DNA from: Balneola sp.
GTDB lineage: Bacteria > Bacteroidota > Rhodothermia > Balneolales > Balneolaceae
NCBI GenBank assembly: GCA_002720745.1
Contig: PBJO01000023.1
Coordinates: 1 to 64,000 of the forward strand
Direction: 5' to 3'
DNA: 64,000 bases
The translations under genes were made by a program, and so were the position numbers. The notes under the pieces were generated by a model, which was given only the letters and a program-made list of their open reading frames with translations, searched no databases and was not told the DNA's origin. Numbering within the stretch: position 1 is the stretch's first letter; every line of letters starts with the position of its first letter. This document shows, piece after piece, positions 3,446 through 24,498 of this stretch.

Positions 3446-5446
3446 ATGAAAATAGCATCACTAACTCTTTACCTTTTTATCCAAGCTATAAATTCATTGT
3501 TTGCTCAGGAGCCTCAAACTATTAGAACAGGACAAACAATTAGTGGCTTTATTACTAGCGGAGATACAACTAAATATGCCTTGAAATTGAACGCAGGTCA
3601 ACTCGCATGGGGAACTTTGGTGCAGTATGATACAGATATTGATGTATTAGTTAAAAATGATGAAATGAATAATATCTCCTCATCCATGAACTCATCTGAT
3701 ATTGATGAATTTTTTCAAATAGAGACAGAAAGAGACGGATTCATTTACATACATATTTTCTCTGTTGATACTACTAGCGGTGAATATGATCTAACAATCA
3801 AAGGTGTTGAAAATATTGCAAACAAGCCTGATTTAAGAGTAGATCAAATCATGAAAGAGTTTGATAGAAATGTACCTGGTGTCGTTGTAGGTGTATACAA
3901 AGATGGTCAAACATTATTCACTAAGGGTTATGGATTAGCAAATCTAGATTATGATATACCTTACTCACCTGAAACTAGAACTAATATAGGATCAACTTCT
4001 AAGCAGTTTACTTGTTTTGGTCTCATGTTATTAGTAGATGATGGCCTAATAGATCTAGATTCATCCATTCAAACCTATCTGCCTAATGTTAAAAAATTTG
4101 GTAAAGAGGTAACGGTTCGAAACCTAATGACACATACCTCTGGTTACAGGGAATTTTTAAATTTAATTTTGTTGACAGGTAGAAAAATTTATACAGGATC
4201 TAATATTGAACGCCATGAATTAATTGAAATAATCAACCGCCAACCGGAATTGCAAAATAGACCTGGTGGAGAATGGAATTATAACAATACGGCATTTGGT
4301 CTCCTTACAATGATTATTGAGAATGTGTCAGGAATGGATTTTGTGGATTATATGAATGAAAGGGTATTTGAACCATTGGGTATGATCAATACTCAATTCA
4401 GAGAGAATCAAGATGTAATCATTAAGCAACGCGCTGCTGGATATAGTATAAATGATGGTGGTTATTTTGAGGTAAGAGATTTAGGTGGTGCCATGGGAGC
4501 AGGTGCAATTTACACAACTACAACTGATATGATGAATTGGTTTAGAAATTTTAGCACCTATGAAGTTGGTAGTGAAGATATTTACAATCAAATGACAACA
4601 TCATTTGATTTGAATAATGGGGAGGTAACCGGATATGGCTTTGGCCTTTTCATTGATGAGTATAAGGGATTGAGGCAAATTCATCATGGTGGAGCAGATA
4701 ATGCTCATCGCTCTATGTTTACGTATTTCCCAGATATTGATGCAGGTGTGATTGTCTTTAGTAATTATGCTTCTTTTAACTCGTCCAAATATGCTGATCT
4801 GATTGCCGATACGTATTTTAATGAATATTATAAAGAAGAAGATGAAAGTAAGGAAACATTAAACTTCGATACATCTTCATTCAGTTTTGAAGATTTTGAA
4901 GTATATGAAGGAACCTTTGAATTAGACGCTGTGCCTGGGTTTCAATTGAAGTTTTTCCAAGAAAATTCTACCTATTATACTCAGGCTACTAACCAGCAAA
5001 AAATTGAAATTGAACCAACTGGTGAAAATCAATTCACCGTTAGAGCAGTAAATGCCAGAATAGTATTTGAAAAAGATGAAGAAACCGATGAATTTGATAC
5101 TTTGATTCTATATCAAAATGGAGAACAAAAAGCTTCAAGAATTAAAGAAGGACCTTGGGAACCAACTATTGGAGAATTAAATTCATATGCTGGTATATAC
5201 TATAGCGAAGAAATTGAAACTAAGTATTATATACAAATAGTGGATACATCACTTTCCCTTCGTATTGCTCAGTTTGGAGATAAATATGAGCTACATAGTG
5301 GGAAAAAAGATGAATTTATTTTGTCTAGTATGCCCGGTTATAATTTAGTATTTCAAAAAAATGACAGGAATGAGGTCATATCTATCTTAGTTAATGCTGG
5401 AGGTAGATCAAGGGATATACGATTTACTCGTCAATCTTATGAATAA
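3446..5446 (+). CDS. Exported beta-lactamase-fold serine hydrolase with N-terminal PPC-like domain
   Basis: A 666-residue exported enzyme. Signal peptide MKIASLTLYLFIQAINSLFAQ, then a pre-peptidase-like beta domain (about 22-130: TIRTGQTISGFITSGDTTKY, DIDVLVKND), then a class C beta-lactamase/penicillin-binding fold (about 135-460). Catalytic elements are visible: S183-T-S-K186 (SxxK), Y279-N-N281 (YxN) and H414-G-G (HHGG, replacing KTG). The C-terminal 190 residues resemble the beta-sandwich tail of exported serine hydrolases. The family includes esterases, D-aminopeptidases and PBP-like enzymes, so the substrate is unknown. It stands alone, with neighbours on the opposite strand downstream. 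Two other paralogous-fold enzymes lie in the window (11587-12837 and 48051-49145). Confidence 0.88.
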   Translation: MKIASLTLYLFIQAINSLFAQEPQTIRTGQTISGFITSGDTTKYALKLNAGQLAWGTLVQYDTDIDVLVKNDEMNNISSSMNSSDIDEFFQIETERDGFIYIHIFSVDTTSGEYDLTIKGVENIANKPDLRVDQIMKEFDRNVPGVVVGVYKDGQTLFTKGYGLANLDYDIPYSPETRTNIGSTSKQFTCFGLMLLVDDGLIDLDSSIQTYLPNVKKFGKEVTVRNLMTHTSGYREFLNLILLTGRKIYTGSNIERHELIEIINRQPELQNRPGGEWNYNNTAFGLLTMIIENVSGMDFVDYMNERVFEPLGMINTQFRENQDVIIKQRAAGYSINDGGYFEVRDLGGAMGAGAIYTTTTDMMNWFRNFSTYEVGSEDIYNQMTTSFDLNNGEVTGYGFGLFIDEYKGLRQIHHGGADNAHRSMFTYFPDIDAGVIVFSNYASFNSSKYADLIADTYFNEYYKEEDESKETLNFDTSSFSFEDFEVYEGTFELDAVPGFQLKFFQENSTYYTQATNQQKIEIEPTGENQFTVRAVNARIVFEKDEETDEFDTLILYQNGEQKASRIKEGPWEPTIGELNSYAGIYYSEEIETKYYIQIVDTSLSLRIAQFGDKYELHSGKKDEFILSSMPGYNLVFQKNDRNEVISILVNAGGRSRDIRFTRQSYE

Positions 5447-18186: not shown

Positions 18187-18681
18187 ATGAAAAATCTATT
18201 CCTATTATCTGCATTTTTATATCTAGGTTGCGTACCTAATACAGAACAAGCTTTAGTAGATGAAGGTATGCTAAGCCAAACCCTAATTGAACTATCTCAA
18301 AACTTTCAACTTGCCTACATCAACAATGACTATGAAGACGCCAGTACTTTCATGAGTACAGACTTTGAAACAACAGTTTTCAACTCAAATGGCACTGAAC
18401 TGATTATACAGACTCAAGATAATATTGAAAATTCTGGCGATGGCTGGGACTTCGATGAGTTTGTTATGTCAAATCATGCTGTGACATTCTCCGCAGATCA
18501 AACAACCGCAGTTATTGTGTTCAATACTGATGGGAGCATTAGTTTTGAAGGTGGCGAGCAAAATGTACCCTATGCTACAAGAGCATCACAAACTTGGGTG
18601 AATACCAGTATGGGATGGAAAGTAATGCATTCACATTGGTCACCTAGAGTTGGAGCAGTAGGAGTACCTGTAGAAGAATAA
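18187..18681 (+). CDS. NTF2-like (SnoaL/DUF4440-type) lipoprotein
   Basis: 164 residues from the ATG at 18187; a GTG six bases upstream is an alternative start. The signal MKNLFLLSAFLYLGC ends in a lipobox Cys (C15). The mature part has the NTF2-like cone-fold pattern: a helix with YINNDYEDASTFMSTDF, strands (VTFSADQTTAVIVFNTDG), and a final RASQTWVNTSMGWKVMHSHW typical of SnoaL/DUF4440 proteins. These domains bind or convert small molecules, and many have no known function. It follows GH3 on the same strand but is separated by 100 bases with a palindromic element. Confidence 0.75.
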   Translation: MKNLFLLSAFLYLGCVPNTEQALVDEGMLSQTLIELSQNFQLAYINNDYEDASTFMSTDFETTVFNSNGTELIIQTQDNIENSGDGWDFDEFVMSNHAVTFSADQTTAVIVFNTDGSISFEGGEQNVPYATRASQTWVNTSMGWKVMHSHWSPRVGAVGVPVEE

Positions 18682-18893
18682 CGCCAACGCTGCTATTTTA
18701 TAAGGTAAACCGCATTTTATTAATGTTTGATTTGTGTTCATCAAATTAGCTTGCTTTAGTAATTATACAAATTTTATGATTGCTTTGATACGATTGTATC
18801 TCTAACACTAGAATAAGTCTGTGATATTAATTAGATACGTAAATTATTTTAGCATCTTACACTGACAAAAGTAGTGCTAGATAATAAAATTTC

Positions 18894-20255
18894 ATGCGCA
18901 AAACATTTCAATCTGTTATAATATTGAGTTTTACTTTGTTTTCATGCGACTTATTTCAAGGTCAAAATGAGACACAAAGTTCTGATAAAAGAGTAGCATC
19001 ATTAGATGAATATGAATACCTCAATTCTCACTCATCAGATTATATTTATGATCAGGACAAGCTTCATAAATTTGAAATTTTTATTGATTCAAATAATCTT
19101 GAAGAAATAAATAGTGACCCAGCGCTAGAGAAATATGTCAATGCTCATCTTGTATTTGAAAATAAAGTTGTTAAAGATGTGGGCATTAGATACAAGGGAT
19201 CAATTGGCGCATGGGTAGGTTGTTTATCAAATAATGATTGGACAAATCCAAGCGGGTATAAAACATGTCCAAAGTTGTCAATGAAAATAAAATTCAATTT
19301 CAATGAAGAAAAACAATTTTATGGATTAAAAAAACTTCAGTTACATTCACAAAACCTTGATCCTTCAAAGATGAGAGAAAGATTAGGTTACTATATGTAC
19401 AGAAATTTTGGAGTTGTTGCACCTCGATCTAACCATGCCCTAGTATATATAAATGATGTATTTAGTGGAGTTTATGCTAATACTGAAAATATTGACGGGC
19501 CTTTTACCAATAAGCATTTTGATGATATTGGCGGTAACCTATACAAAGAAGTTTGGCCAATTAAATCAAATGGCTCAAAACAGGAAGAAGTAAATTTCAA
19601 AAATGCACTAAAAACAAACGAAGAAGCATCAGACGTATCAAAGATATTAGCTTTTTCTGAAGCTCTATCTAAGTCAAATAATCTATCAATAAATGAGCTT
19701 ATAGATAGTTGGATAGATCAAGATGTTTTCTTAAAGACTTTGGTTGTTGACAGAAGGATAGCACATGACGATGGATTCTTACATTTTTATCACCAAGGAG
19801 GGGATTTATACGAAAGTCATAACTACTATTGGTATGAAAATGCCTCAAACAACAAAATACAACTAATCCCATGGGATCTTGATAATGCCTTTGAAAATCT
19901 TAATAAAAATATAAATCCTGTAACACCAATCAAGGATAAATGGTATGAAATAACAAATGATTGCAATGGTTTTCCATTTGGAACTTTTGGGCTCCTTCAA
20001 AAATCAGCCGCATGTGATAAAATTATTGGGGCTTTCATTCGGCATAAAGATTATTTCTATACCCTTGATAATGATTTTCAAAATGAATTCTTCAATAATG
20101 ACCATATTGTTTCATTATTAAATGAATGGGCAGATCAAATAAAAGATGCTGTTATTGATGCAAATTCATTATATGGGAGTGCTGAGCCTAGATATGAAGA
20201 ATGGATGTTGAATTTAAATTTTCTTATTGATTCGATAAGATTGTCAATCCAATAA
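18894..20255 (+). CDS. CotH-like kinase-fold lipoprotein
   Basis: 453 residues with lipoprotein signal MRKTFQSVIILSFTLFSC (C18). The body matches the CotH family: FEIFIDSNNLEEI, VGIRYKGSIGAW, the loop KMRERLGYYMYRNFGVVAPR, ALVYINDVFSGVYANTENID, and IQLIPWDLDNAFEN, which carries the Asp-x-Asp-type metal site. CotH proteins have an atypical protein-kinase fold first known from spore coats and are frequent as secreted proteins in non-sporulating bacteria. Here it is predicted to be anchored outside the inner membrane, beside glycan-degrading genes. Its target is unknown. It starts the AT-rich stretch. Confidence 0.85.
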   Translation: MRKTFQSVIILSFTLFSCDLFQGQNETQSSDKRVASLDEYEYLNSHSSDYIYDQDKLHKFEIFIDSNNLEEINSDPALEKYVNAHLVFENKVVKDVGIRYKGSIGAWVGCLSNNDWTNPSGYKTCPKLSMKIKFNFNEEKQFYGLKKLQLHSQNLDPSKMRERLGYYMYRNFGVVAPRSNHALVYINDVFSGVYANTENIDGPFTNKHFDDIGGNLYKEVWPIKSNGSKQEEVNFKNALKTNEEASDVSKILAFSEALSKSNNLSINELIDSWIDQDVFLKTLVVDRRIAHDDGFLHFYHQGGDLYESHNYYWYENASNNKIQLIPWDLDNAFENLNKNINPVTPIKDKWYEITNDCNGFPFGTFGLLQKSAACDKIIGAFIRHKDYFYTLDNDFQNEFFNNDHIVSLLNEWADQIKDAVIDANSLYGSAEPRYEEWMLNLNFLIDSIRLSIQ

Positions 20256-20309: not shown

Positions 20310-20854
20310 TTATCGTATTTCATTATCAACAATATTTAAATTAAAGAATATATCTACTGGAAAGCTCAGAGAGTCATTAAATGCTAAAGAGTAATTTTCA
20401 GGATTCTGATTCAAACCATCATTAATATTTTGAAAAGCCTCTCTATTTTAAACTGTTCATATTCTTCTTGTGTATATGCTCTCCGGTTAACTATCCAGAT
20501 AAAACCACCTTTCACATCTGAAGCAAGTTCTCCTTGATTATAAGCTTTTACAATTCTACCATCTCTTACACTCAAATAAACGGGTAAAGTATACTCAGTA
20601 ATACAATAGCACTCTCTTTGAAAGACATAATCAAAGTCATTTGGTTTGGTTCTATTCCATTTATTGACATTTGATCGAACTCTTTAATCTATAAATGTTT
20701 CAGTAGACTCCGATTCCTCATTATTATTTACAATGTTACACCTTACAATGAATAACAAAATGACCAATAAATAAGAGATTCTTTTCGAAATAAATTCTTC
20801 GTTAGATATTATTGGTGTACTAATATCATTCAAATCATTGTTGTATTCATTCAA
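20310..20854 (-). pseudogene. Decayed DUF6174-like lipoprotein
   Basis: A minus-strand reading interrupted twice. It opens (no ATG; a TTG at 20854 is possible) with SYLLVILLFIVRC, a lipoprotein-like signal. An in-frame TAA follows ETFID, then NKWNRTKPNDFDYVFQREC, YCITEYTLPVYLSVRDGRIV and YTQEEYEQFKIERLF. One base is then missing in CTTTTC, and the frame shifts to QNINDGLNQNPENYSLAF ... NLNIVDNEIR with a TAA at 20310. Trp...Asn...Tyr-x-(F/Y), Cys-x-Cys and V-V-G-V features, and the closing P-x-D-x-F-F-N strand, fit the DUF6174 family of small secreted proteins. One nonsense and one frameshift make it a pseudogene unless both are sequencing errors. Confidence 0.6.
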
Positions 20855-20917: not shown

Positions 20918-20989
20918 ATGAAAACCTGTGAATGTACTCGTTGTAATTGCAAAAGTGAATGCAAATGCAACAGTTGTGAATGTTGTTAG
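20918..20989 (+). CDS. Mini-metallothionein-like Cys-rich peptide (23 residues)
   Basis: A 23-codon gene, ATG at 20918 and TAG at 20987-20989. The product begins MKTCECTRCNC and ends SCECC. Nine of 23 residues are cysteine, at positions 4, 6, 9, 11, 15, 17, 20, 22 and 23, forming two copies of Cys-x-Cys-x-x-Cys-x-Cys separated by three residues. The spacers are Glu, Lys, Asn, Ser, Thr and Arg, with no hydrophobic residue after Met. This is the composition and spacing of metallothioneins; the closest analogue in size I know is the 25-residue copper metallothionein of Neurospora crassa. Known bacterial metallothioneins of the SmtA/BmtA type are about twice as long with different spacing. It lies between a decayed gene and the 3' end of the GH26 gene. 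Translation is not proven; the upstream GAAGAATTAAAA is a weak ribosome site at best. Confidence 0.6.
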   Translation: MKTCECTRCNCKSECKCNSCECC

Positions 20990-21003: not shown

Positions 21004-22071
21004 TTACCTATAACCAAGTTTATCGAAAAGATTTTCATCCGCATGAAGCAGGGTTTCAATATACCTTGCCCAATAGTTTTGGGCACTCTGAACTGAATTT
21101 TGGATCCTCGTATCTCCCCAAGTTGTTGTTGAATTATCAGCTTCCCAATCAACGTTTATATATGTAAACGCCTTTACTGCATCATTTTGATGGATAAATG
21201 TAAAAATATTGGAAAACCATGTGTTAGTTGGAATAACCCAATTTGGATCTCTGTTGTTTCCAGTTTTAATTGCTGCTGATTCAGCTATCATGATAGGTTT
21301 ATCATGATTATTTGCGAATTGCACAAAATAACCCATTGTTGAATTAATGTTTAAATTTCCCCATCCGGAACCAAAAATTGAGATTGCAAGCCAATCAACA
21401 TAGTCATCTCCGGGATACCACAATTCATGAGTCACATCTGTAGTTAGTTCCGGATAATATTCTGGATAATCTTCAGTTCCATAGTATGGGCTCACACCCC
21501 ATGAATGCCACACATATGCAACGTTATCTACATTCTGACTTCTCATCATATCCACAAAATGTGTATATGCTGCTTTATATTTGTTTGGTGGATAAGCATT
21601 ATGATGCCCATCAAATTCGTATCCAAACCTTATAAAGATTGGTCTATCCAAACTTTTACATGCTTCAGCTAGTACTACTATATTGTTGTCATATTTACCT
21701 TCAATGATTTCATCTAAATAATAACCTGGATTACCCCATCTCCTTTCACCAGTCCAAATAGCCAATTGAAGCATTGTATTAGGATAAGCTCTCATAAAAG
21801 TAATATATCTACTCATATCTTCTAATGGTTTACTCCCACTAAGGCTTGTATAAAATGCGAAACCAGCAGGTAATGGTGTACCCCTAACCTCACTCAAGTA
21901 ATCTCTCATATGTTGTTCATTAGCTTGACCCAATATGAATAAAGCTTCACCATCATCCGGTACAAATCCTGAGTTATTATTTTCTATTACATTTGTTGGC
22001 GTTTCTTTACACGAAAATAAAAACAGAGTAAGTAGCACAGACAAGTAGAGTAAAAGTGAGTTTGGCTTCAT
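21004..22071 (-). CDS. GH26 glycosidase-like lipoprotein
   Basis: 355 residues with lipoprotein signal ending LFLFSC (C21). The (beta/alpha)8 domain has the GH26 signatures: PIFIRFGYEFDGHHNAYPP with acid/base E152, YVWHSWGVSPYY, and MIAESAA with nucleophile E264, plus the WYPGDDYVDWLAISIFG strand. GH26 contains beta-mannanases, beta-1,3-xylanases and lichenases; I cannot choose by eye. It is anchored to a membrane by its lipid rather than T9SS-secreted. It is a single gene on the minus strand, with the mini-metallothionein convergent at its 3' end and a small membrane protein pair divergent at its 5' end. Confidence 0.85.
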   Translation of the reverse strand: MKPNSLLLYLSVLLTLFLFSCKETPTNVIENNNSGFVPDDGEALFILGQANEQHMRDYLSEVRGTPLPAGFAFYTSLSGSKPLEDMSRYITFMRAYPNTMLQLAIWTGERRWGNPGYYLDEIIEGKYDNNIVVLAEACKSLDRPIFIRFGYEFDGHHNAYPPNKYKAAYTHFVDMMRSQNVDNVAYVWHSWGVSPYYGTEDYPEYYPELTTDVTHELWYPGDDYVDWLAISIFGSGWGNLNINSTMGYFVQFANNHDKPIMIAESAAIKTGNNRDPNWVIPTNTWFSNIFTFIHQNDAVKAFTYINVDWEADNSTTTWGDTRIQNSVQSAQNYWARYIETLLHADENLFDKLGYR

Positions 22072-24430: not shown

Positions 24431-24451
24431 TAATTATCACTTGGATAATTA
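24431..24451. promoter_or_regulatory. Dyad upstream of TIP30-like operon
   Basis: TAATTATC (24431-24438) and GATAATTA (24444-24451) pair around ACTTG, 35 bases before the TIP30-like start codon and 48 bases after the GH16 stop. It may be an operator for the operon or a weak terminator of GH16. A/T-only arms reduce the weight of this call. Confidence 0.3.
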
Positions 24452-24498
24452 CATAATTATATTGTTATTATTGAACTTATACACATATGACTTATATC

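Follow-up and report, generated by a model that had tools for sequence, protein, structure and literature searches.

A nine-cysteine microgene of Balneola and phage peptides of near-identical layout as candidate minimal metallothioneins

Known metallothioneins and the nine-cysteine peptide

In animal metallothioneins, the beta domain binds three metals through nine Cys ligands, and the copper metallothionein of Neurospora crassa is a peptide of about 25 residues whose seven Cys include a CxC-xxx-CxC-xx-C core. Metallothioneins have been described as rare in bacteria, where most are of the SmtA type with a zinc finger (PMC7558416, PMC10612145). SmtA, 56 residues long, has a zinc-finger fold of the GATA type and contains hydrophobic residues and His (PMC10612145, PMC7558416). 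MymT, a 4.9-kDa copper metallothionein of mycobacteria, came to light as a short Cys-rich ORF that lacked annotation (PMC7558416). A literature search in an incomplete library returned no report of a nine-Cys peptide family such as the one described here.

The window (the whole stretch of 64,000 nucleotides of Balneola sp. DNA that was analysed) contains a short frame with an ATG start and a TAG stop that encodes MKTCECTRCNCKSECKCNSCECC, with Cys at positions 4, 6, 9, 11, 15, 17, 20, 22 and 23 (Table 1). Translation confirmed this reading, as given in the first-pass annotation, and pattern matching recovered the two serial CxCxxCxC modules that it had described. Nine of the 23 residues are Cys (39%), arranged in four CxC and one CC; the Cys-richness and the CxC/CxxC/CC motifs of metallothioneins are thus present, and so is a further trait of these proteins, the lack of aromatic residues, in the window peptide and in its two orthologs. 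The window peptide has no His and no signal peptide. The claim that no hydrophobic residue follows the initial Met holds for the window peptide and fails for the ortholog in genome G005, which has Ile at position 7. The frame had also been called unlike a chance frame, and this was borne out: 40 dinucleotide-preserving shuffles of the window produced 30,086 ATG ORFs of 15-60 aa, none of which had at least seven Cys together with at least 30% Cys, and the highest Cys fraction among them was 0.27 as against 0.39 in the window peptide. The six-Cys pattern occurs a single time in the 2.17-Mb genome of the window, and the two genus genomes with a homolog, G008 and G005, likewise contain it one time each; it was found neither in the other six genus genomes nor in the reversed control. 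A third CxCxxCxC match in the window (4499-4522, minus strand), antisense to a gene of 666 aa, was rejected as chance.

Table 1. Features of the window at and around the nine-Cys peptide gene
Feature	Position	Strand	Basis
CotH-domain protein gene, conserved upstream neighbour, also in G005	18894..20255	+	PF08757, 1.1e-36
Decayed DUF6174 lipoprotein gene, split between several frames, transcribed away from the peptide gene	20310..20854	-	Comparison with the G005 copy
Nine-Cys peptide gene, 23 codons, product MKTCECTRCNCKSECKCNSCECC	20918..20989	+	Translation; orthologs; substitution pattern
First CxCxxCxC module, Cys 4, 6, 9, 11	20927..20950	+	Pattern match
Second CxCxxCxC module, Cys 15, 17, 20, 22; then Cys23 and the stop codon	20960..20983	+	Pattern match
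Small inverted repeat between convergent genes, TAGATT-ATT-AATCTA, in overlap with the stop codon	20987..21001		Sequence
355-aa lipoprotein gene, convergent, glycoside-hydrolase-like by eye	21004..22071	-	No Pfam match at 1e-3

No model in Pfam, NCBIfam or PHROGs matches the peptide. PF02069 gave no match to it at E up to 10, and the SmtA control was matched at 1.7e-20. The peptide shares with SmtA, BmtA and PmtA a bacterial origin, and SmtA too starts with CxCxxCxC (KCACEPCLC). However, the zinc-finger segment of SmtA has no counterpart in the window peptide, which lacks a GATA-type segment with His (it has no His and no aromatic residue and is too short). These comparisons place the peptide outside the known prokaryotic metallothionein family (PF02069, SmtA). 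A search of the PDB with the family profile returned three matches at E < 10, all to metallothioneins and none significant (E 0.18-0.68): 2kak (wheat Ec-1), 1j5m and 1dme (both metallothionein-1). The nine-Cys beta domain of animals (1j5m, 1dme), with ~28 residues, is a single-cluster unit, as the window peptide is also predicted to be; both have spaced CxC and CxxC motifs, and the C-xxx-CxC-xx-CxC segment of the beta domain is spaced like Cys 11-22 of the window peptide. These domains are halves of two-domain proteins, whereas the window peptide, a 23-mer, stands alone and has another N-terminal half, and their matches (E 0.19-0.68) are not significant. The copper metallothionein of N. crassa resembles the window peptide in size and core, but it has seven Cys instead of nine, is eukaryotic and carries no evidence of common descent. 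MymT is also a small Cys-rich ORF, but it is set apart, by its description, by a different motif (PMC7558416).

Conservation and locus of the peptide gene

Homologs of the same spacing were sought in related genomes and found in two genomes of the same genus, both with all nine Cys. The peptide is present in three of nine genomes of the genus, namely that of the window and those of two other species (G008, G005), and the gene occupies the same locus in all three; it is absent from the other six, several of which are incomplete. The G008 ortholog (G008:C37:51-119) has 100% and the G005 ortholog (G005:C97:7244-7312) 83% amino acid identity to the window peptide. Between the window and G008 there are four nucleotide differences, all of them third-position and synonymous, and three of these are TGT/TGC swaps. 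The 12 differences between the window and G005 are distributed 0/4/8 over codon positions 1/2/3 and result in the changes T3N, T7I, R8Q and S13N. When the same 12 changes were placed at random, all Cys survived in 0.1% of trials (p about 0.001). DNA identity between the window and G005 is 83% in the peptide ORF versus 88% in the adjoining, decayed DUF6174 gene, so a slow rate of change in the DNA does not account for the conservation of the Cys. These data show that purifying selection acts on the Cys of the peptide gene.

The A2 profile, built from the bacterial and the phage peptides (see below), was run on 92 genomes of the family, 245 of the class and 395 of the phylum. It identified no peptide beyond the three genus genomes in the family and class sets, and in the phylum set it matched the window's own genome alone. 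Weak matches in other genomes of the family (L004-L007 and L424-L426; E 0.07-0.75) are without the Cys pattern and were discarded as chance. A pattern scan of the genome collection gave no convincing cellular relative among the matches listed (119 stretches), which are dominated by poly-Cys readings of simple repeats.

Several genes near the peptide gene are concerned with polysaccharide degradation, and a Pfam scan identified C-terminal YPNPFNP / Por_Secre_tail sorting domains among the gene products, in keeping with a Bacteroidota/Balneolaceae-type bacterium. The DUF6174 gene is intact in G005 at the same place (L009:6602-7162, 186 codons; PF19671, 2.6e-20); in the window it is broken while the peptide gene stays open. 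The 355-aa lipoprotein gene and the peptide gene have an identical distribution, both being found in the same three genus genomes. The inverted repeat, altered yet recognisable in G005, is possibly a transcript end shared by the convergent genes. No metal regulator, exporter or chaperone adjoins the peptide gene. Upstream of it there is no Shine-Dalgarno-like leader, and the genes of the window are generally without such sites; no conserved Bacteroidota-type promoter was recognised there by eye.

Three other genes were recorded in passing. A MerC-family protein with a Cys-rich C-terminus, KYCKCQDDSCCVDNH, is encoded at 2118-2543 of the window (minus strand; PF03203, 1e-12), ~18 kb from the peptide gene. 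In G005, a gene for a 574-aa secreted protein with a YPNPFNP tail, by eye sugar-dehydrogenase-like (L009:10822-12546), separates two blocks that are directly joined in the window (24450-24493), a clean gene gain or loss. Also in G005, a 1143-aa gene just upstream of the CotH gene (L009:1558-4989), by eye a fused methylmalonyl-CoA-mutase/GTPase, is absent at the matching place of the window (18679-18692).

Nine-cysteine peptides of T4-like phages

IMG/VR was scanned for the Cys spacing, and the matches were filtered to short ATG frames without poly-Cys. This gave at least 76 viral loci with at least 64 distinct nine-Cys peptides on contigs of uncultured tailed phages; MKCNCKTCGCGKSCDCTCCNC is an example. 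Most members of the nine-Cys architecture are viral. Among the 76 loci listed, 74 encode peptides of 20-22 residues, one a peptide of 23 and one a peptide of 36. In the phage frames listed, TAA or TAG immediately follows the last Cys codon; none of the encoded peptides has an aromatic residue, and a single His occurs among them all. Their layout is CxC-xx-CxC-xxx-CxC-x-CC-x-C, compared with CxC-xx-CxC-xxx-CxC-xx-CxCC in the bacterial peptides, the spacings of the first six Cys being common to both. The contigs examined encode a clamp loader, a terminase and a contractile tail-sheath protein, which identifies them as T4-like tailed phages. Two genes that neighbour the phage peptide gene have only remote relatives among deposited phages. 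Shine-Dalgarno leaders precede 3.6% of the genes on the phage contigs versus 3.2% in shuffles, a scarcity that fits Bacteroidota-like hosts but is not proof of them. A tblastn search of the peptides against phage records gave no match, and the low-complexity filter probably removes such queries.

Because the phage peptides had been selected by their Cys pattern, conservation of the pattern among them may be circular, and a count of non-synonymous Cys changes in that set was discarded on these grounds. Contigs were therefore fetched via two neighbouring genes, and any small Cys-rich ORF was taken irrespective of its Cys layout. Such an ORF was present in 36 of 80 contigs for one anchor gene and in 15 of 80 for the other, nearly always with the same layout. 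Its absence from the remaining contigs, some of them incomplete, indicates that the phage peptide gene behaves as an accessory gene. Eight of the nine Cys columns are invariant in the 26 distinct ORF sequences, and each of the eight is encoded by both TGT and TGC. The ninth column contains one change from Cys to His, in MKCDCKECNCGTTCEHTCCNC (L483:2424-2489, plus strand); no other conserved Cys is replaced in the neighbour-anchored set. The ten non-Cys columns vary (N, D, K, E, S, T, G, V, I and others). Invariant Cys among otherwise variable residues have the appearance of a signature of selection for metal-ligating side-chains.

The window peptide has the core of the phage family (CxCxxCxCxxxCxC, 20-23 residues, a stop no more than two residues past the eighth aligned Cys). 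It does not have the C-terminal CxCCxC or the inter-module Gly/Ser of the phage peptides; it has CxxCxCC and K-S-E instead, whereas in the phage peptides the residues between the modules are mostly Gly and Ser. The genomic settings differ as well, the phage peptides sitting among phage genes and the window gene in a chromosomal polysaccharide locus. We hold it possible, if somewhat doubtful, that the gene moved horizontally, from the phage family into the bacterium or in the reverse direction; such a transfer is compatible with the function proposed below. With a profile built from the phage peptides only, 99.7% of 20,000 composition-preserving shuffles score lower than the window peptide, phage and window genes are alike in having no Shine-Dalgarno leaders, and a single genus in the phylum sample carries the peptide gene. 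However, when only the non-Cys residues were shuffled, the score was equal or better in 29% of trials; by this measure the similarity between the bacterial and phage forms resides in the Cys spacing, and the non-Cys residues contribute nothing to it. The bacterial ending CxxCxCC did not turn up in two targeted scans of viral contigs, and forms that had converged on a favourable cluster geometry would look no different. The two forms may share an ancestor.

Predicted function and alternative explanations

We consider it probable that the frame is a genuine microgene of a narrow bacterial group with a minimal metallothionein-like product, and that the matching phage family probably does the same job. 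Nine thiolates within 23 residues, CxC spacing and the lack of aromatic residues are, at the level of sequence, the features of a metallothionein domain. The same-genus homologs and the phage peptides of near-identical layout make a minimal bacterial metallothionein, as proposed in the first-pass annotation, the best-supported prediction of function, and the PDB matches, although not significant, are all to metallothioneins. We infer that the peptide is translated, located in the cytosol and able to bind metal, and the stoichiometry and role that follow are predictions of the same kind. Without metal the 23-mer would be unfolded. By analogy with the animal beta domains, a single compact cluster, either of three Zn(II)/Cd(II) or of some six Cu(I), would be enclosed by its nine thiolates, and the peptide as a whole is probably one nine-Cys metal-thiolate cluster. 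The soft metal bound, whether Cu(I), Zn(II) or Cd(II), would be buffered or detoxified in the cytosol, and the peptides of T4-like phages probably act in the same way during infection; the capture of metal by an infecting phage is a further candidate role.

It seems improbable to us that, instead of binding metal, the peptide buffers thiol redox state or radicals or acts as an effector rich in disulfides. Conservation of Cys cannot by itself separate thiol chemistry from metal chelation, and no metal-related gene lies next to the peptide gene. However, an odd number of Cys in dense CxC/CC spacing is ill-suited to defined disulfides, and the peptide has no signal peptide. Moreover, the sole natural substitute for Cys among the neighbour-anchored phage ORFs is His, which ligates metals and has no redox chemistry of this kind. 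We think it very unlikely that the frame is fortuitous, i.e. that a conserved DNA or RNA element such as a transcript end happens to read as Cys codons. Changes in the frame are mostly third-position with every Cys kept, its DNA is less conserved than that of the decayed gene beside it, and independent phage sequences preserve the Cys through both TGT and TGC while their other residues vary; these observations outweigh, in our opinion, the position of the ORF between convergent genes, with a small inverted repeat at its stop codon, in a stretch common to close relatives. A RiPP precursor, methanobactin-like or lanthipeptide-like and matured by neighbouring enzymes, is scarcely credible, as the first-pass annotation had already judged for methanobactin: short Cys-rich peptide genes are indeed of the kind that gene callers miss, but there is no leader region (Cys occur from residue 4 on), RiPP or methanobactin maturation domains (radical SAM, YcaO, LanB/LanM, MbnB-like) were found in none of ten proteins scanned with Pfam, of which nine are encoded no more than about 6 kb away, and a non-systematic look at several different phage contexts revealed no common maturation gene.

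Returning to the minimal metallothionein, we regard it as an even question whether the bacterial and phage peptides constitute a new class of nine-Cys, single-cluster metallothioneins of 20-23 residues, mainly viral (common among uncultured T4-like phages) and present on the chromosome of at least one bacterial genus. Such a class would have been overlooked because its members are shorter than the usual gene-calling limits, an example of real genes lost to length cut-offs. If the reading is correct, metal buffering would be an unrecognised component of phage infection, and the phage metal-binding peptides would represent a new kind of auxiliary infection gene. The 23-residue nine-Cys gene and the phage family would then be close to the smallest possible protein with a full metal-thiolate cluster. 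The peptide is easily synthesised, and its metal preference and structure are therefore directly testable.

Two further features were seen on the phage contigs. The 36-residue variant, MRNRQNCNCENCKCQKACNCMKCNCSKSCDCACCDC (L235:798-908, minus strand), looks like an extended or duplicated nine-Cys peptide. Separately, a hairpin with the near-invariant loop GATTCATAGCC recurs at 88 places in 86 viral loci that carry the peptide gene or the dehydrogenase gene that neighbours it. It is not found in the window, and an Rfam scan of L262 gave no family above threshold. The hairpin lies between the peptide gene and the gene for an FAD-dependent dehydrogenase, for example 3' of the peptide gene in L137, L198, L223 and L262. 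Its arms covary (AGACT/AGTC, AGTCC/GGAC, AGCCT/AGGC, AACCC/GGGT, AGTTC/GAAC), which suggests a phage RNA element or terminator that has not been described before.
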